Shown: positions 2,097 to 27,133 of the stretch, in pieces
Numbering within the stretch: position 1 is the first letter of the stretch
Layout: each line of letters starts with the position of its first letter
Source: Haloplanus salinus
GTDB taxonomy: Archaea; Halobacteriota; Halobacteria; Halobacteriales; Haloferacaceae
DNA length: 64,000 bases
Direction of reading: 5' to 3'
Assembly: GCF_003336245.1 (NCBI RefSeq)
Contig: NZ_QPHM01000001.1
Location: forward strand, 558,001-622,000
Made by a program: the position numbers and the translations under genes
Notes under the pieces: generated by a model
What the model saw: only the letters and a program-made list of their open reading frames with translations
The model's database searches: none
What the model was told of the DNA's origin: nothing

Positions 2097-2533
2097 CCCG
2101 CTTTCTCTGTGACGCGATGCTCGGCAAACTGGCGCGCTACCTGCGGATGTGTGGCTACGATACGGCGTACGCGCTCGACCGGGGGGTCGAGGCGGACGCC
2201 GCGGTCGGTGACCTGACGCGCCGAGAGGGCCGGACGCTCCTCACCCGGGACGCCGACCTCGCGGCGCGGACGGCGGGCGCCGTCCTGCTCACGGAACGGG
2301 ACGTCGAGGCACAGCTACGCGAACTCCGAGATGTGGGCGTGTCGCTGTCGCTGCCGGAGACGCCGCGGCGATGTGGGCGGTGCAACGGGACGCTCGAACG
2401 GGTCGACGCGGACGGGGGGACGCCCGCCGACGCGCCGGACCCCGCGGGGACGCCCGTCTGGCGGTGTGTGGAGTGCGGACAGCACTTCTGGAAGGGGAGC
2501 CACTGGGACGACGTTCGAAGCCGGCTGCCTTAG
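2093..2533 (+). CDS. Mut7-C RNase domain protein with zinc ribbon
   Basis: 146 residues from the ATG at 2093, which overlaps the polX stop (ATGA); a longer in-frame start at 2030 lies inside polX and was not chosen. The N-terminal PIN-like Mut7-C domain (DUF82) shows FLCDAMLGKLARYLRMCGYD and LLTRDADL with the expected acidic residues. The C-terminus is a zinc ribbon with CGRC and CVEC pairs followed by FWKGSHW. Family members are predicted ribonucleases; the substrate is unknown. Its TAG stop overlaps the stop of the convergent gene by 4 bases (TTAG, 2530-2533). Confidence 0.88.
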   Translation: MTRFLCDAMLGKLARYLRMCGYDTAYALDRGVEADAAVGDLTRREGRTLLTRDADLAARTAGAVLLTERDVEAQLRELRDVGVSLSLPETPRRCGRCNGTLERVDADGGTPADAPDPAGTPVWRCVECGQHFWKGSHWDDVRSRLP

Positions 2534-3411
2534 CGACCGCTCCAGTCCTCGCAGGCGTCCATGTCGGACATGACGCCGTCGTGGTAGCCACAGTAGGGCT
2601 GGATGCCGCGCTCGGTGCGGACGTACTCGAAGTGTTCGCAGTTGCCGCAGTAGCGATCGGCGGCGTCGGTGCTGGTGCCGGTCGCGGCCGAGGACTGCCA
2701 CACCTCGCCGCCGGACCCCGTAGCCGTGGCCGTGCCGCCACCCGTCGGCGCGGAGGAGGTGACGGACGCCACCTCGCGGATGTCGTCGTCGTCGCTTCCG
2801 CCGTCGCTCACTCCCGCGCCGACGCTGGCCGTCGGCGTGGAGCTGCTGCCGCCGAGGCCGACGCTTCCGTGTGAGGCCCTGCGGTCGACTTCGATCACCT
2901 TCGTCTCGCCCTGGCGCGTCACCTCCATCGTGACGGTGCCGCCGGGGTCGTTTCGCGTCTTGAAGTTGGCGATGCCGACGAACAGACACCAGAAGGTGGT
3001 GAGCGCGCCGAGGAAGTAGACGCCGACGGTGGGGAGCGTCAGGTCGACCATGCCGGGCGCGCAGTTGGCGCCGGACCACCGACAGGGGTAGGCGTGAGCG
3101 AAGAGCGCGACGCCGAGGACGGCGACGCTGGCGCCGATGCCCGCGGCGGCGCGGGTGGAGCGCTCCGCCGGCAGGACGGCCGAGATGCCGAGGAAGACGG
3201 CGGGGACGCCGAGGCCGGCGAGGATGCCGCCGTACTCCCGCACGTCGAAGAGGGTGGTGCCACCGCCCATCAGTACGTCGGTCGTGGCGACGACGATGCC
3301 CGCAACGACGAGGACGATGCCGACGACGAACAGACTCGCCCCCGCGTAGATCTGCCGGAGGCTGGGCCCGCTCCGGTCGTCCCCGTGGTAGACCTCCCCG
3401 AGACTGGTCAT
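2530..3411 (-). CDS. Four-helix membrane protein with cytoplasmic zinc-binding tail
   Basis: 293 residues from the ATG at 3411 (MTSLGEVYHG). Four hydrophobic segments lie in the first half (YAGASLFVVGIVLVVAGIVV, a second near GILAGLGVPAVFL, a third near GIGASVAVLGVALF and a fourth near GVYFLGALTTFWCLFV). A Ser/Gly/Asp-rich linker follows, then a C-terminal Cys/His cluster (YCGNCEHF and PYCGYH...ACEDW) that looks like a small metal-binding module. I believe it belongs to a haloarchaeal DUF family of unknown function (possibly DUF7139). Convergent with the Mut7-C gene. Confidence 0.75.
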   Translation of the reverse strand: MTSLGEVYHGDDRSGPSLRQIYAGASLFVVGIVLVVAGIVVATTDVLMGGGTTLFDVREYGGILAGLGVPAVFLGISAVLPAERSTRAAAGIGASVAVLGVALFAHAYPCRWSGANCAPGMVDLTLPTVGVYFLGALTTFWCLFVGIANFKTRNDPGGTVTMEVTRQGETKVIEVDRRASHGSVGLGGSSSTPTASVGAGVSDGGSDDDDIREVASVTSSAPTGGGTATATGSGGEVWQSSAATGTSTDAADRYCGNCEHFEYVRTERGIQPYCGYHDGVMSDMDACEDWSGR

Positions 3412-20599: not shown

Positions 20600-21295
20600 C
20601 TACGAGTTCGTGTCCGCGTCCCGTTCCTCGATACCCGGCACTTCTTTTTCGAGCCACTCGCGGAACCACGTCACGCGCTTGAGCCGCTGGTGAGCGACGC
20701 TCTCGGCCGCGTCGCTCTCGACCCGGTCGGCGGCGTCGTGACCGCGTTCGAGGACCCGGTCGATCATCTCGCCCGCGTCCATGTGGGTGCGCGATTCGTA
20801 CCCCATCCGCAGGAGCATCAACACGGCGCCGTTTGCGCCGATCTTGTCGAGGATGTCGGCCTCGATCAGACACTGCGTCTCCAGCGAAACGTCGTCGAGG
20901 GAGCCCTGGTAGGAGTGGTCGCGGACGGACTGCGTCACCTGATCGACGAACGACTGTGGGTAGTCACCACGCGTCGTGAGGTACTCACGGGCGACGCGCG
21001 CGCCCTCGTCGGCGTGGCGTTCCTGCTCGGCTTCGAGTTTCGCGATGTCGTGAAACAGCGCCGCCACGCGAACCACGTCGACGTCGGCGCCTTCGCGACG
21101 GGCGATGTCGGCGGCCAGATCGACGACGTTCAGCGTATGGTTGAATCGGTACTCGGCGCTGTGCCACGGATACCACCGCATCCGTCCGCCGTCGTCCTCG
21201 TTCTCGACGCTCGCGGCGAGATAATCCGAGACGAACCCTTTCATCTCCTCGAACGCCGCATCCGAGACGGCGGACTCCTTTATTTCAATGCCCAC
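20600..21295 (-). CDS. HD-domain phosphohydrolase
   Basis: 231 residues from GTG 21295, which has GGAGGTG (21301-21307) five bases upstream on the minus strand. HD-domain landmarks: YRFNHTLNVVDLAADIAR (first His), AALFHDIAKLE (the HD pair) and IEADILDKIG (last Asp), the metal-binding set of this hydrolase superfamily. The family hydrolyses phosphomonoesters or nucleotides; the substrate is unknown. Convergent with gltB with a 45-base gap and followed upstream by the exported-protein locus. Confidence 0.88.
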   Translation of the reverse strand: MGIEIKESAVSDAAFEEMKGFVSDYLAASVENEDDGGRMRWYPWHSAEYRFNHTLNVVDLAADIARREGADVDVVRVAALFHDIAKLEAEQERHADEGARVAREYLTTRGDYPQSFVDQVTQSVRDHSYQGSLDDVSLETQCLIEADILDKIGANGAVLMLLRMGYESRTHMDAGEMIDRVLERGHDAADRVESDAAESVAHQRLKRVTWFREWLEKEVPGIEERDADTNS

Positions 21296-21370
21296 GGTTC
21301 CACCTCCGTTGCGTTCGTGTCGCTCTCATTATCCAAAAAAGGGGTGTTCGACTATTAGTCGTTACGACAG

Positions 21371-21589
21371 TCAGACGGACCCGACCGACACCAGAACGAG
21401 CACCGCGTAGAGGTAGATCAGTGCCAGAATGACGTTTCGCTTCGGTGCGTGCGAGCGCATCCCCGAGCGCCTGAGGAGCCACGAGCCAGTGCCGACGAAG
21501 GGACCGACCCATCGACGGGTCGACTGGTTGCTGATCGCGCGCCGAAACCGACAGGCCGCTCGGAACAGTTCGACAACATCGAGCGTCAT
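21371..21589 (-). CDS. Small membrane protein at the end of the SD-repeat operon
   Basis: 72 residues; its ATG overlaps the stop of the Ser-Asp repeat gene (ATGA), so it is translationally coupled. The N-terminal half is basic (FRAACRFRRAISNQSTRR) and the C-terminus is one hydrophobic helix, NVILALIYLYAVLVLVSVGSV. No family is recognised. The position suggests a membrane partner for the repeat protein, which itself lacks a C-terminal anchor; this is inference. Confidence 0.65.
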   Translation of the reverse strand: MTLDVVELFRAACRFRRAISNQSTRRWVGPFVGTGSWLLRRSGMRSHAPKRNVILALIYLYAVLVLVSVGSV

Positions 21590-23610
21590 TGTGAGTCGTC
21601 GCCGGAGGTGCCTCCATCCGATCCACCGTCACTCGATCCCCCATCGTCCGATCCGTCGGTCGAGTCACTGTCGTCCGATCCGTCGGTCGAGTCACTGTCG
21701 TCCGATCCGTCGTCCGAATCACCACCGTCCGACCCGCCATCGTCCGAATCACTATCGTCCGACCCGCCATCGTCCGAATCACTATCGTCCGACCCGCCAT
21801 CGTCCGAATCACTATCGTCCGACCCACCGTCACTCGATTCCCCATCGTCCGACCCACCGTCACTCGATTCCCCATCGTCCGACCCACCGTCACTCGATTC
21901 CCCATCGTCCGACCCACCGTCACTCGATTCCCCATCGTCCGACCCGCTATCGCCCGAGCCGTCGGTCGAGTCACCGTCGTCCGATCCGTCGTCCGATCCG
22001 TCGTCCGAACCGCCAGCACCCGATTTGCCGTCGTCCGAGTCACCGCCGTCCGATCCATCGTCCGATCCGTCGTCCGAACCGCCAGCACCCGATTTGCCGC
22101 CGTCCGAGTCACCGTCGGTCGATCCGTCGTCTGAATCGCCACCGTCCGATCCGCTGTCGTCCGCTCCGCCGTCCGAACCACCAGCGGCCGACTCATCGTC
22201 GCTCGACTCGCCGTCGTCCGAGCCCCCGTCACTCGATTCGTCGTCCGTCCCATCGTCCGACTCGCCGTCGTCCGTCCCATCGTCCGACTCGCCGTCGTCC
22301 GTCCCATCGTCCGACTCGCCATCGTCCGACTCGCCGTCGTCCATCCCATCGTCCGACTCGCCATCGTCCGTCCCATCGTCCGACTCGCCGCCACTCGATT
22401 CGTCGTCGGTCGACCCACCGTCTGAATCTCCATCGTCCGAACCGCTGTCGTCCGTCCCATCGTCCGAGCCGCCGTCGTCCGACCCACCGTCGCTCGACTC
22501 GCCGTCGTCCGACCCACCGTCGCTCGATTCGTCGCCGTCCGTCCCACCGTCGCTCGACTGCTCGTCGTCCGACCCACCGTCGCTCGACTGCTCGTCGTCC
22601 GTCCCATCGTCCGACTCGCCGTCGTCCGACCCACCGTCGCTCGACTGCTCGTCGTCCGACCCACCGTCGCTCGACTGCTCGTCGTCCGACCCACCGTCGC
22701 CCGACTCACCGTCACTCGATTTGCCGTCGTCCGACCCACCGTCGTCCGAGCGCTCCTCGCCTGACGATTCTTCCGAACCATCGTCGCCGGGCGATTCCCC
22801 GTCCGAACTGCCGTCACCCGACGAATCCTCCGAACCATCGTCGGTCGAGTCCCCGCCGTCGGTCGAGTCGTCGGACGGGCCGTTCGCGTCGTCCGTCGGC
22901 TCGTCGGGCGACGTATCGGAGTCCGCTCCGGATGCACCGCCGCGCGGACGTGAGTCGTCGTCGGTGTCTTGCTCTTCCGTTGGCGTGGGCGTCGCCGTCG
23001 GCTCGGGCGTGGCCGTCGGCGTCGGCGTCGGCGTGGCCGTCGGCGTCGGCGTTGCCGTCGGTGTCGTCCCGTTGCTCGACGTGGTGTTCACCCCGACGGC
23101 GGACCCGTTGAGTTGCGTGGGCTGTGATTCGTTGGGGACGAACACCGCGAACGGGCTGAAGCTTTCCGTGTACGCCGAGAGGTGGATCATCCAGCCCTCG
23201 GTCTGCCACTCAACCGACGTATTGAGATGCTTCCACTCCCCGTCGTGCCGGTGAGCAATGGTGGCGTCTTTCGGCGACGAGCCGTCGAAGGCGGACGGGC
23301 GGAGCCAAACCGAAACCTTGGCACACCCGTCGCGTTCCGGAACTTCGAAGTCCCGAATGCTCCTCATCTCGTCCGCATCGGGTGAAGTTTCGACGACGTT
23401 GTTCCCGTCGACCGCGTCACAGGAAACGTTGTACACCTGATACTGGTTGTTCTGGACGACCTGTTCGACCGAGAGAGTTCCGGTGGTGTTCTCGACGTCG
23501 GAGAGGACGGCGTACGTCCCGCCGCCGGCGCCGGACACGACGACGGCAAAGACCACGAGGAGCGTGATCACGGCCGTCCAGTCGAACCCGGGGTCGTCGA
23601 GCCGCGACAT
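21586..23610 (-). CDS. Ser-Asp repeat surface protein with SipW-type N-terminus
   Basis: 674 residues. Residues 1-55 carry a membrane helix (VITLLVVFAVVVSGAGGG) followed by TYAVLSDVENTTGTL, the pattern of SipW-dependent substrates. Residues 60-185 are globular and resemble the PGF-pre-PGF type domain (KHLNTSVEWQTEGW, SFSPFAVF). Then a Thr-Pro stalk (about 190-215) and roughly 430 residues of SDDGGSDDGES-type repeats to the end. No C-terminal anchor or sorting motif is seen. Probably exported and cell-surface or extracellular, with the repeat as an extremely acidic stalk. Second substrate-like gene of the operon; overlaps both neighbours. The repeat region keeps long open frames on the opposite strand, which are shadows. 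Confidence 0.85.
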   Translation of the reverse strand: MSRLDDPGFDWTAVITLLVVFAVVVSGAGGGTYAVLSDVENTTGTLSVEQVVQNNQYQVYNVSCDAVDGNNVVETSPDADEMRSIRDFEVPERDGCAKVSVWLRPSAFDGSSPKDATIAHRHDGEWKHLNTSVEWQTEGWMIHLSAYTESFSPFAVFVPNESQPTQLNGSAVGVNTTSSNGTTPTATPTPTATPTPTPTATPEPTATPTPTEEQDTDDDSRPRGGASGADSDTSPDEPTDDANGPSDDSTDGGDSTDDGSEDSSGDGSSDGESPGDDGSEESSGEERSDDGGSDDGKSSDGESGDGGSDDEQSSDGGSDDEQSSDGGSDDGESDDGTDDEQSSDGGSDDEQSSDGGTDGDESSDGGSDDGESSDGGSDDGGSDDGTDDSGSDDGDSDGGSTDDESSGGESDDGTDDGESDDGMDDGESDDGESDDGTDDGESDDGTDDGESDDGTDDESSDGGSDDGESSDDESAAGGSDGGADDSGSDGGDSDDGSTDGDSDGGKSGAGGSDDGSDDGSDGGDSDDGKSGAGGSDDGSDDGSDDGDSTDGSGDSGSDDGESSDGGSDDGESSDGGSDDGESSDGGSDDGESSDGGSDDSDSDDGGSDDSDSDDGGSDDSDSDDGGSDGGDSDDGSDDSDSTDGSDDSDSTDGSDDGGSSDGGSDGGTSGDDSQ
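21610..22890 (-). repeat. Low-complexity Ser/Asp/Gly codon repeat
   Basis: Tandem degenerate copies of units such as GGTGGGTCGGACGAC and GGCGAGTCGGACGAT (minus strand), mostly multiples of 3 between 9 and 33 bases, with near-identical blocks (for example a 33-base unit repeated four times near 21820-21945). Encodes the Ser-Asp stalk. It is not a CRISPR array: there are no unique spacers and the phase is coding. Confidence 0.9.
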
Positions 23611-24596
23611 CAGGGCTCACCCCCGTCGGTGCATTCCCACCCACCGTCGTCGAACTCGTACTTACAGCCGTCCTCGCCGTTACAGAAGTTCGAACTACTG
23701 CGAGAGGTGTTCGCGTACCTGTTACCACGTCCGTCCAGTTTCGGGTACGTGGTCCCGTCGTTGACGCCGACCGTGAGCGAGTCCTGACTCACGTAAGTGA
23801 AGACCTCGATGGTCCGTCCGTACTTGATCGCGATCGTTTCGACCGTGTCGGGGGTCGTGTACGCGTCGGTGTCGAGCAGGAGCGTCCGACCCTCGTCGGT
23901 CAACTGCGGTGTGAAATCGGTGTCGAGCGCCGGACTACCACAGAACGCCACCCAACTTATCGCGGACACGACGCCGTTCCCGCCCGAAGGATCACCCGTC
24001 GGATCGCCACAGTCCACACAGGACCACGGTGGCTCGATATCGCTCGGGTCGGAGACGTGTCGGGTTTGTGTCGCGTAGAAGTCGAACGAGAGCGACACGT
24101 CGGTATCCTCAACCCATTCCCGAAGCTCCCACTCGGCGACGAGCAGCCACTCCGCGTCGGGATCGAGCGTGCCGACGAACTGACCCGTCCCGAAACGGTC
24201 GCGTGCCTCACGGAGGGGAATATATCCGTCCGTGATCGGCGTGTCTATCTCCCCGTCTCCGCTGGTGTCGACACCGTATCGAACGTACAGCGCCTCTTCG
24301 ATGTCCAGACACTGTGTACACTCCGTCCGGAACCAGACGTAGGACGGGTTGTCGACGAGGGTGAGTCGGACCTCACGGCTTCCACTCTCGCCCGTCGATA
24401 TCGTCCCGAGCGAGTCCTCGTTCCCCCACGACGGCTCGGCCTCTAAGTCGACCACGCCGGCCGACACCGTCGACTCGCCGAACGACTCCGAGTCGTGAAA
24501 CAGTGCGGCTGCTCCGCCCCCGGTCGACGCCGCAGCTCCCACGGTGGTCAGCGCCCACAGGAGCTTCCGACGCGACAGGGAGCGGGAGTCGGTCAC
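23610..24596 (-). CDS. Exported TasA/CalY-like protein with SipW-type signal
   Basis: 328 residues. The N-terminus LSRRKLLWALTTVGAAAS combines a twin-arginine-like motif with AALFHDSESFGESTVSAG, the hallmark of SipW-cognate signals (TasA, CalY/camelysin). The mature part is a beta-rich domain (VDLEAEPSW..., SREVRLTLVDNPSYVW) with paired cysteines (CTQC, CVDC), followed by a second Cys-containing domain ending CNGEDGCKYEFDD. Likely extracellular, perhaps fibre- or biofilm-forming as TasA is, but that is by family analogy. Its ATG overlaps the stop of the signal peptidase gene, so enzyme and substrate are coupled. Confidence 0.8.
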   Translation of the reverse strand: MTDSRSLSRRKLLWALTTVGAAASTGGGAAALFHDSESFGESTVSAGVVDLEAEPSWGNEDSLGTISTGESGSREVRLTLVDNPSYVWFRTECTQCLDIEEALYVRYGVDTSGDGEIDTPITDGYIPLREARDRFGTGQFVGTLDPDAEWLLVAEWELREWVEDTDVSLSFDFYATQTRHVSDPSDIEPPWSCVDCGDPTGDPSGGNGVVSAISWVAFCGSPALDTDFTPQLTDEGRTLLLDTDAYTTPDTVETIAIKYGRTIEVFTYVSQDSLTVGVNDGTTYPKLDGRGNRYANTSRSSSNFCNGEDGCKYEFDDGGWECTDGGEP

Positions 24597-25690
24597 GTCC
24601 CATCACCGTCCGTTGTCGAAGGGTCGCCGTCCGCCGATTCGGCTGCGTCGTCCCCCTCGACGGCCGTCCCGCCGTCCGTTTCGGGAGCGGTGCGGTGCAG
24701 ATACAGGGCGTCGTCCCGGGTCATGTAGTACGTATCCTGCTCCTCGTCGTAGATGACCCAGTCGTCGCGGTCCAGCGCCATCTGAACCAGCGACTCGACC
24801 GATTCCAGCGGGATAGTGGTTCGATCACTGATCCCCGCCGGAAGCTTGCCACGCCGAACGACGCCGTCCACGGAACGGGTCGCCCCGGTACTTCCACCCG
24901 AACCACGGCTGGCCACGTAGAGCACGAGACAGAACAGGAAGCCGATACCCGTCCCGGTCGCGACGGCGATGGACCACGCCTCCCGGGTGGTGTACGCGAC
25001 GTACCCGCTGTACGGGACGTACAGTCCGAACAGAAGCAGGACCAACTGGAGGCTCGAACGGGTGAGGGTGAACCCGTCGGAGCCGGAGCCGGAGTCGGTC
25101 TCGGCCTCGGTCTCGCCGGTCGTCGTCACCGTCGTCGCCTCGTCCGCGGCGGTCGAGTCGGCCTCGACCTCCGGTTCGCGAACCGATTTCACCAGTTCCC
25201 AGAGCTCCGAGAGGACGAACAGCGCCATCGGCGTGAGCACGAGCACGAGGAAGCCAAGCTGCGTGTTTGCGAACTGGACCACGTGGCCGATGAACGGGAT
25301 CACGAAGATGACCTCACCGACCACCCGGTCGTGTGAAACTGTACCACGGTCACGCTCCTCGTTGGCGTCGCCTTTCGTGACGTACGCGACGCCGTCGTCC
25401 GTCGACTGCTTCTCGATCACGCGGTGGGTCGTCGGCGTGTCACTTCCCTGCCGCTGGTACGTGATGATATCCCGCTGCTCGACCTTGGAGGCCGACACCT
25501 CCCGGACGATGACGGCGTCACCCGGACTCATCCGCGGCTCCATGCTGCCGGAGAGGACGACGAGTCCGTGATCCGCCCCGACGACGGCCGGAACCGCGTA
25601 CACGACGAAGGGTGCGACGACGGCGACGATTACGAGCACCGCCAAGACGTTCACCGCCAGCCGCGGCACTCCACGGTCGCCGAGATTCAC
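24593..25690 (-). CDS. Signal peptidase I, SipW/archaeal type
   Basis: 365 residues from GTG 25690, chosen because GGAGGTG (minus strand, 25697-25703) sits six bases upstream; GTG 25699 overlaps that site. An N-terminal helix leads to the catalytic serine in VLSGSMEPRMSPGD, and PTTHRVIEK supplies the His that replaces Lys in the SipW/Sec11 class. Further helices lie near residues 135-160 and 220-270, and an acidic tail ends the protein. It removes signal peptides at the outer face of the membrane; the coupled downstream genes are its likely dedicated substrates. Confidence 0.88.
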   Translation of the reverse strand: MNLGDRGVPRLAVNVLAVLVIVAVVAPFVVYAVPAVVGADHGLVVLSGSMEPRMSPGDAVIVREVSASKVEQRDIITYQRQGSDTPTTHRVIEKQSTDDGVAYVTKGDANEERDRGTVSHDRVVGEVIFVIPFIGHVVQFANTQLGFLVLVLTPMALFVLSELWELVKSVREPEVEADSTAADEATTVTTTGETEAETDSGSGSDGFTLTRSSLQLVLLLFGLYVPYSGYVAYTTREAWSIAVATGTGIGFLFCLVLYVASRGSGGSTGATRSVDGVVRRGKLPAGISDRTTIPLESVESLVQMALDRDDWVIYDEEQDTYYMTRDDALYLHRTAPETDGGTAVEGDDAAESADGDPSTTDGDGT

Positions 25691-25696
25691 ACTCGA

Positions 25697-25703
25697 CACC
25701 TCC
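25697..25703 (-). promoter_or_regulatory. Shine-Dalgarno site of the signal peptidase gene
   Basis: GGAGGTG on the minus strand, six bases before GTG 25690. Perfect anti-SD match; fixes the start and implies a leadered transcript, unlike most genes around it. Confidence 0.7.
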
Positions 25704-26012
25704 AGCTCGGCGGAGGAACGTCCGTCCGACGAGAATCGGCTGCCGTCACGGCCAGTCCCCCGCGTGACTCGGCCACTCGTCGATCTCCCCCGTTGCGTTC
25801 ATCACTACTAACGAGCCTTCTAACGGCCTTAGTTATCCGTCGCTTTGACACGACGTGACGGAAGGTAAGGCGATCCTGAAGCCGGTGGATACCGGGGGCC
25901 GTCACTGCTCCGATCGCCGACCGGCTGGTCGCCCGATATCGGCCTCCTAAACCGGGTTTTGTAGCCGTCGATCGGGTTCCTAACGTCCCGTTAAGCACCC
26001 GTTTATGCATGG
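25704..26012. other. Intergenic leader region of the exported-protein operon
   Basis: About 310 bases with no supported gene. Minus-strand AT-rich boxes at about 25829-25836 (TAACTAAG) and around 25810-25820 could be the promoter, giving a 5' leader of roughly 100 bases before the Shine-Dalgarno site. No clear terminator for the upstream fusion gene was seen. Confidence 0.4.
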
Positions 26013-26633
26013 TCATCCCTCCGTACACGGCCGCGGATCGAAGGCGACTTGGAAGGTGGCCGAATCGCTCTGGATGATGTTGCCGACCGTCTCCGGGATC
26101 CGCCACTCGAAGGCGACGTACACCTCGTCGCCCGGCGAGAAACAGTCGGTACCGTCGACCCTGATCCGGTACTCGCCGTCGCCAGTCGCTTCCGGATCCT
26201 GATCCGCGACCTCCGCGAGAGTTCCCTCCGCGACCGTGTCGTCCCCGATGACCGGTAGCTCCTCCAGTTCGCCGTTTCCGGTGAAGATTCCCTCGTCGAT
26301 CCAGACCGAAATCTCCGTGTGGTCCTGCAGCTCCCCGCCGTCCTCCCCCGGGTTGTCGCCGGACGGCCACTCGGCCACGTCCGGGATCTGTTCGCCAAGA
26401 CGGTCCAGAATGTGCGGTTCGAGCTCCGCGGCGATGGTCTCGAACGTGTTCAACCACGCCTGCTGGGGGTACCACTCGTCGGCGGAGGGGTCGTCGATGC
26501 CGTTGTCCGCGAGGGCGTCGAACGCCGTCTCCCGATAGGCGTCGGAGAATCGGGCCAGCGCGTCGTCGGCGACGGCGATGATCGTCCGGCCGTGGACTTC
26601 AACGTCATCGTCGAACGCCTCGTAGGGAGCCAT
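26013..26633 (-). CDS. Apparent fusion: unknown helical N-terminus joined to a TasA/CalY-like C-terminal fragment
   Basis: 206 residues from ATG 26633 (MAPYEAFDDD). Residues 1-90 are a soluble helical segment (VHGRTIIAVADDALARFSDA, WYPQQAWLNTFETIAAELEP, ILDRLGEQIPDVAEWP) like the beginning of a cytoplasmic haloarchaeal domain I cannot name. From SGDNPGEDGGELQDHTEISVW onward it reads like the C-terminal half of SipW-cognate TasA/CalY-like proteins (GTLAEVAD, VYVAFEWRIPETVGN, IIQSDSATFQVAF). No signal peptide precedes it, so as it stands the secreted-type domain would stay inside the cell. Either a recombination product or decaying gene. A TATA-like box at 26661-26667 supports expression from this start. 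Confidence 0.65.
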   Translation of the reverse strand: MAPYEAFDDDVEVHGRTIIAVADDALARFSDAYRETAFDALADNGIDDPSADEWYPQQAWLNTFETIAAELEPHILDRLGEQIPDVAEWPSGDNPGEDGGELQDHTEISVWIDEGIFTGNGELEELPVIGDDTVAEGTLAEVADQDPEATGDGEYRIRVDGTDCFSPGDEVYVAFEWRIPETVGNIIQSDSATFQVAFDPRPCTEG

Positions 26634-26680: not shown

Positions 26681-27133
26681 TCAGCCGAGCGGCGGGCGGA
26701 GCGCGTCGACCCGTCGACACCGGTAGAACCGCACGCGCCGCACGAGCAGTTTCCAGCCGGTCACCGCGACGGCCGCGCCGCCGGCGTTGACGAGGATGTC
26801 CCCTCCGTCGGAGGTCCGGTAGGCGAGCGTCGACTGGAGCAACTCGATGCCGGCGCCGTACGCCGTCGCGAACGCGAACACGACACAGAGGACCTGCCAG
26901 TCCGGCCGCGGACTGGTCTGGAGCGCGTACGCCAACACGAACGCCAGCCCGGCGTAGCCGATGGCGTGGAGCCACGCGGTCAGTGGGACCACGCCGAGCG
27001 GACCGAGCGTGCGGCCCGTCGTTCCCGGCGGGCGAACGACCGAGAGGACGAGGAGCGTCGCGAGCGTCACGACGACCAGCGACCAGCGGAGCCACCGTGG
27101 GACGAGCGGCAGTCGGAGTCGGAAACCAGTCAC
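26681..27133 (-). CDS. VanZ-like membrane protein
   Basis: 150 residues from GTG 27133 (VTGFRLRLPLVPRWLRW), which has CGTTTTTCGG-type AT-rich bases 21-30 upstream on the minus strand; ATG 27223 is an in-frame alternative. Four hydrophobic helices, with WLHAIGYAGLAFVLAYAL, GAGIELLQSTLAYRTSD and DILVNAGGAAVAV as in VanZ-family proteins (conserved E-x-x-Q and D-x-x-x-N). The family is linked to glycopeptide resistance in bacteria, but in haloarchaea its role is unknown. Divergent from the second trkH. Confidence 0.85.
   Translation of the reverse strand: MTGFRLRLPLVPRWLRWSLVVVTLATLLVLSVVRPPGTTGRTLGPLGVVPLTAWLHAIGYAGLAFVLAYALQTSPRPDWQVLCVVFAFATAYGAGIELLQSTLAYRTSDGGDILVNAGGAAVAVTGWKLLVRRVRFYRCRRVDALRPPLG

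Follow-up and report, generated by a model that had tools for sequence, protein, structure and literature searches.

A SipW signal peptidase operon in Haloplanus salinus is probably the remnant of a larger haloarchaeal TasA-type locus

The window analyzed here, a stretch of 64,000 nucleotides from Haloplanus salinus, carries four overlapping genes for a SipW-type signal peptidase, a TasA-like protein, an acidic repeat protein and a small membrane protein, which raises the question of whether these genes form a complete secretion system or only a part of one. In the initial annotation the genes were taken for a dedicated SipW secretion and surface-fibre system. This view is well supported, as the genes occur together in five congeners and also in Halobellus and Haloferacaceae archaeon XH8, but the truncation of the locus was missed. 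The locus is a real, conserved system of a known type with several unusual parts, and it is truncated in the window genome. We consider it likely that a haloarchaeal SipW-TasA locus for surface fibres was cut short here by a deletion of about 13 kb, and that the window contains its downstream half, left intact as a remnant. The features of this remnant are the following:

24593..25699, minus strand: N, SipW/Sec11-type signal peptidase with a DUF5305-like C-terminal part (TIGR02228, 1.8e-30; PF17231, 8.8e-8)
23610..24596, minus strand: O, TasA-like SipW substrate with a twin-arginine (SRRKLLW) signal (profile-profile match to the TasA-like K family)
21586..23610, minus strand: P, 674-aa repeat protein with a SipW-type signal, a PGF-pre-PGF-like beta head, a Thr-Pro stalk and an acidic tail
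23116..23610, minus strand: signal and head of P, residues 1-165 (alignment and predicted structure)
21589..22956, minus strand: acidic Ser-Asp-Gly low-complexity tail of P (tandem repeats; composition in orthologues)
21371..21589, minus strand: Q, small basic membrane protein of 72 aa (conserved in seven of seven clusters; hydropathy, charge)
25770..25880, minus strand: conserved upstream block TTCAGG-N5-CTTACC ... TGTCAAAG-N4-GGATAACTAAGG (six congeneric genomes and XH8)

The four genes were confirmed at these coordinates on the minus strand, in the operon arrangement that had been claimed for them, and are joined by stop-start overlaps (GTGA between N and O, TGATG between O and P, ATGA between P and Q). 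The upstream block occurs in one copy per locus in seven genomes (six congeneric ones and XH8), is retained in the window and is probably the promoter region of the SipW operon. Between this block and SipW lies a short open reading frame, MNATGEIDEWPSHAGDWP, of 18 codons plus stop (window 25746-25802, minus strand), and a similar one is found at the same position in the congeners G002, G009, G003, and G006; it might encode a leader peptide or merely be conserved 5' sequence.

The description of N as a SipW/Sec11-type peptidase proved correct, as N scores 105.9 bits against the NCBIfam model TIGR02228 (cut-off 51.85) and its profile matches SEC11A and SEC11C sequences in the PDB at about 1e-15. 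Ser52 (SGSMEP), His92 (THRV), and Asp111 are invariant in six orthologues (alignment A1), an alignment in which a Ser-His active site takes the place of Ser-Lys. Because of these invariant residues and the SEC11C and SEC11A matches, N can be classed by sequence as an ER-type, Ser-His peptidase. Against the model for the Bacillus SipW equivalog (NF046067) it reaches 103.4 bits, under the cut-off of 190, and it is best described as a relative of Bacillus SipW and not as its equivalog.

A further open reading frame, within the annotated coordinates but left without explanation in the initial annotation, lies upstream of the operon. It was considered as an ordinary gene and rejected as such, as its two halves belong to two genes:

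26013..26633, minus strand: chimeric open reading frame of 206 aa, scar of a deletion of about 13 kb (both halves aligned to the two parent genes)
26357..26362, minus strand: deletion junction, at about CCGGCG, a short microhomology (DNA alignments; exact endpoint deduced from relatives)

Residues 1 to about 91-95 of the chimera match a protein of 183 aa, here called B, and the remainder matches the C-terminal part of a TasA-like protein, M; the sequence is B-like up to ...GAGTGGCCGTCCGGCG and M-like beyond, and both parts are joined in frame. In five congeners (G002, G003, G006, G007, and G009) the counterparts of the two halves share a strand but are separated by 12.5-13.7 kb, and in G002 short sequences similar to CCGGCG stand at the corresponding points of both parents. 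The deletion probably arose through short microhomology. Adjoining the scar, at window positions 26681-27133, is a gene for a membrane protein of about 150 aa, VanZ-like in appearance, which is found in the same place in several congeners.

The same five congeners have an intact cluster between the same flanks, in the order B; C (MarR-type, minus strand); D (UppP/BacA; PF02673, 2e-44); E (polyprenyl glycosylphosphotransferase; PF02397, 8e-63); F (epimerase, in three of the five); G (AglB/STT3-type oligosaccharyltransferase; PF02516, AglB_L1); H (a protein of about 275 aa); I; J (DUF7344); K and L (TasA-like, both with a twin-arginine signal, and in L also a VWA domain; one of them is missing from G007); M; N, O, P, and Q; and an HD gene. 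The block of 12.5–13.7 kb directly upstream of SipW holds the TasA-like subunits, the regulators and the UppP, sugar-transferase and AglB/STT3 genes, and a comparable set is present in XH8, where D and E lie on the same chromosome, further upstream. Each of the 12 congeneric genomes encodes one canonical AglB; the AglB of the cluster is an extra copy and is absent from the window genome. The deletion has removed the main TasA-like subunits, the regulators and the dedicated N-glycosylation genes from the window locus. In congeners lacking the cluster (G001, G004, G008, G010, and G011) the whole of B, the MarR-type C and the HD gene are close together, and because these genomes keep both B and C near the HD gene, the window genome alone has lost C and the end of B. 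A lone H gene at the otherwise empty site of G001 (2513-3337) is probably a trace of a lost cluster. Genes, gene order, conservation and deletion are all read directly from the genomes compared.

That the deletion is found in only one of the 12 congeneric genomes, and in one assembly, would suit an assembly error in a genome that really has an intact cluster. This is very improbable considering that the assembly is 99.93 % complete in 4 contigs, that the missing genes are on no contig and that no long repeat capable of misleading the assembly was seen around the junction. A move of these genes to another place in the window genome was likewise considered and rejected: when the 13 kb from G002 were searched across this genome, no orthologue was found, only scattered fragments of TasA-like and other paralogues.

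If the deletion is real, the remnant might be a decaying pseudo-operon, with SipW, O, P, and Q unused and on their way out. Decay would suit the loss of the main subunits, the DUF7344 regulator and the glycosylation genes, and a second, complete SipW cluster of this genome could stand in for every function. We nevertheless regard decay as somewhat unlikely, since the four reading frames are unbroken in the window genome, including the 2 kb of the repeat protein, the conserved upstream block is retained, and dN/dS against G002 is well below 1 (N 0.17, O 0.18, P head 0.13, Q 0.23; 0.07-0.08 for the parts of the chimera), although these values average over a divergence most of which may be older than the deletion. 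The second cluster (G000:C1:154000-173500) encodes a DUF7344 regulator, a TasA-VWA protein, two more TasA-like proteins, an M-like and an O-like protein, SipW, and a 325-aa Ser/Gly/Asp-rich SipW-type protein, and several orphan TasA-like genes are found elsewhere in the window genome. Because of this second cluster and the orphan genes, the remnant SipW could still have substrates, and the reading as a truncated locus with an intact downstream half is the one that we follow below.

For O, the claim of a TasA/CalY-like protein stands through a family relationship and not through a direct Pfam match. The profile of O matches that of the TasA-like K family (hhalign profile-profile, 98.4 %, E 4.8e-15) over the signal and most of the first 180 residues, and all eight members of the K alignment, from intact clusters and paralogues, match PF12389 (TasA/camelysin), whereas a Pfam search with O itself gave no match, PF12389 included. 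The match of the K representative to PF12389 (26.2 bits, cut-off 22.5) is confined to residues 23-56, mainly the signal and the first strand, and the K gene itself is deleted from the window genome. Orthologues of O match the TAT_signal model (TIGR01409), to which the match of K is below the cut-off. No solved TasA structure was found by sequence with the profiles of the O and K families, and the predicted structure of O is poor (pLDDT 55); the label ‘TasA-like’ for O and the deleted genes rests on family membership and gene neighbourhood rather than on structure.

The repeat protein P shows the SipW-type signal, the Thr-Pro stalk and the long Ser-Asp tail that had been attributed to it. It scores 19.9 bits against the model for SipW-dependent signals (TIGR04088, cut-off 19), which four of seven orthologous heads match at E <= 0.1. 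The head had further been called PGF-pre-PGF-like, and all seven orthologous heads match TIGR04213 at E <= 0.1; the G006 orthologue passes the cut-off of 28 with 34.2 bits, while P of the window stays below it (16.3-19.5 bits). Cys 64 and Cys 96 of the head are invariant among seven orthologues (alignment A3). The head model is beta-rich, with pLDDT 70-89 over most of residues 50-160; this moderate model (pLDDT 68) gave no significant match in the PDB, and TapA was not among the 50 matches listed. In the window the tail comprises about 450 residues with 35, 25, and 25 % Asp, Ser, and Gly and a net charge of -179; across the orthologous proteins the tails span 308-515 aa, with net charges of -65 to -247. 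The acidic low-complexity character of the tail is kept in six orthologues and its sequence is not conserved, G009 being rich in Asp/Glu/Ser/Pro and G003 in Gly/Glu/Thr/Lys. N-X-S/T sequons, seven of them in P of the window, cluster at head and stalk, which fits the linked glycosylation module without proving glycosylation. A twin-arginine motif is absent from P, and the protein is probably Sec-exported.

How P is held at the cell is a separate matter. P of the window has no match to PGF-CTERM or other C-terminal anchor and ends ...GGTSGDDSQ without a hydrophobic segment, and the LPXTG sortase signal is absent from the translated protein, in agreement with the earlier statement that neither a sortase or archaeosortase motif nor a C-terminal anchor is present. 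Sdr-type sortase anchoring was rejected, as its motif was not found. Staphylococcal Sdr proteins have a long Ser-Asp-rich stalk and a sortase signal. The likeness that had been drawn between the tail of P and these stalks holds for the Ser-Asp composition, but P has a different head, no sortase signal and a tail that is not conserved and varies in composition among orthologues. The similar paralogue P' of the second cluster also weakens it, being shorter than P, with a SipW-like signal and a Ser/Gly/Asp tail and without a PGF-pre-PGF head.

The small protein Q, of 69-72 aa, follows P in seven of seven clusters (six of the genus and XH8), with a 4-base overlap in six of them and a start 2 bases after P in one. 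It has a net charge of +4 to +10, one clear hydrophobic span, C-terminal, at residues ~53-69, and a motif PGM-x-P-x-APKRN (SGMRSHAPKRN in the window), of which APKRN is invariant in the seven clusters. No Pfam or NCBIfam model matches Q. The idea that Q is a lineage-specific oddity was rejected, as an order-wide search finds relatives: Q-like sequences occur in 32 of 293 genomes of the order, the motif taking the wider haloarchaeal form PGM-x-P-x-AP(K/R)RN. Outside the window genome, about eleven of 35 Q-like matches have a listed SipW gene no more than ~4 kb away (positions compared by eye), with a chance expectation estimated at well below one, and Q stands directly after an acidic low-complexity protein in G033, G031, G229, G237, G145, and G034. 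The pair of P and Q is not a lineage oddity, as an acidic SipW-type protein and Q follow SipW in several haloarchaeal families. On gene order, Q can be regarded as a genuine partner of P; that it anchors P is a guess. In G087 and G116 a DUF7344 gene, and not P, precedes the Q-like protein, which has an APRRN motif and is encoded on the other strand than a nearby SipW. Halobellus has, after P, a protein of about 400 aa with an M-like C-terminal domain instead of Q, and in Halobellus sp. Atlit-31R P two clusters with this protein are arranged in tandem.

A search for the gene order in other haloarchaea, suggested in the initial annotation, yields the gene set in the five congeners, XH8 and Halobellus, and a broader version of it across the order. 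A SipW of the N type (E <= 1e-40) is present in 95 of 293 genomes and 47 of 87 genera. The usual order in 12 inspected loci is DUF7344, TasA-like genes, M, O, SipW, a low-complexity protein and Q, with losses and rearrangements in some of them; the set of UppP, sugar transferase and AglB was seen, among the loci inspected, only in the genus of the window and XH8. These data also bear on the possibility that P is an adhesin stalk comparable to Sdr, anchored by Q and independent of TasA-type fibres, for which the Ser-Asp composition, the strong coupling of the P and Q genes and the lack of any other anchor in P could be cited. We think it unlikely: most of the clusters examined have P and Q in the company of SipW and TasA-like genes, the full length of a P-like protein can be as little as 144-186 aa, and the sortase signal of Sdr proteins and, in the paralogous P', the PGF-pre-PGF head are missing.

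Taking the locus as half of a SipW-TasA system, we infer its export route, cleavage, fibre assembly and glycosylation, and the roles of P and Q, as follows. The twin-arginine signals of O and the TasA-like proteins suggest Tat export, and to judge from the bacterial systems, the subsequent cleavage of these proteins and of P is most likely the work of SipW. The cluster-specific set of AglB, UppP and sugar transferase probably N-glycosylates the TasA-like subunits, which would be assembled outside the cell into surface fibres. P would be a polyanion that is secreted, has a small beta head and occupies the place of an accessory or matrix protein, and Q, translated with P, is probably needed for its export or retention. 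In the window genome the deletion took away subunits, regulators and the genes for glycosylation and joined the two genes at its flanks into one; SipW, O, P, and Q stayed intact behind a conserved upstream region of their own and could serve TasA-like proteins from other loci. This natural deletion offers a ready comparison between a strain without the subunits at the locus and congeners that have them.

Our literature search, with subscription journals mostly outside its coverage, found no paper on SipW or TasA in haloarchaea and no experiment on members of a haloarchaeal SipW-TasA system, to which the SipW-TasA matrix system would hereby extend. In bacteria, TasA and BsaA are established as dependent on SipW (PMC10151520, PMC7395162); the peptidase cleaves TasA and TapA, and BsaA requires it in order to be secreted and to polymerise (PMC9674648, PMC7395162). 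Like tapA-sipW-tasA of Bacillus subtilis, the haloarchaeal locus combines an ER-type SipW with its putative substrates in an operon, a TasA-like protein and an accessory protein that is disordered over a long stretch (PMC10151520, PMC9674648). It differs in the twin-arginine motif of the TasA-like signals, in a P that is far more acidic and whose head is PGF-pre-PGF-like and not detectably TapA-like, and in the extra small membrane protein Q. The loci sipW-calY1-bc_1280-calY2 of Bacillus cereus and sipW-bsaA of Clostridium perfringens likewise join SipW to several secreted matrix proteins, and the accessible parts of their descriptions mention no Ser-Asp polyanion, Q-like protein or glycosylation genes (PMC10151520, PMC7395162). 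Within the same accessible text, the pair of P and Q is not seen in bacterial SipW systems, and the twin-arginine signals, the linked N-glycosylation set and the pair of polyanion and small membrane protein are not described for the bacterial systems compared. Among archaea, the bundling pili of Pyrobaculum calidifontis are a TasA-related filament, as far as the passages citing them tell (cited in PMC9674648, PMC10151520). The surface proteins of the archaeosortase A system (PGF-pre-PGF/PGF-CTERM) resemble P through the weak TIGR04213 match of its head, found in seven of seven orthologues, and differ from it, as P lacks PGF-CTERM and has an N-terminal SipW-type signal. As a tentative proposal, haloarchaeal TasA-type fibres could form a distinct class, which would be Tat-exported, cleaved by SipW, glycosylated in one lineage by a cluster-encoded OST, and dependent for assembly or retention on P and the APKRN-motif protein Q.
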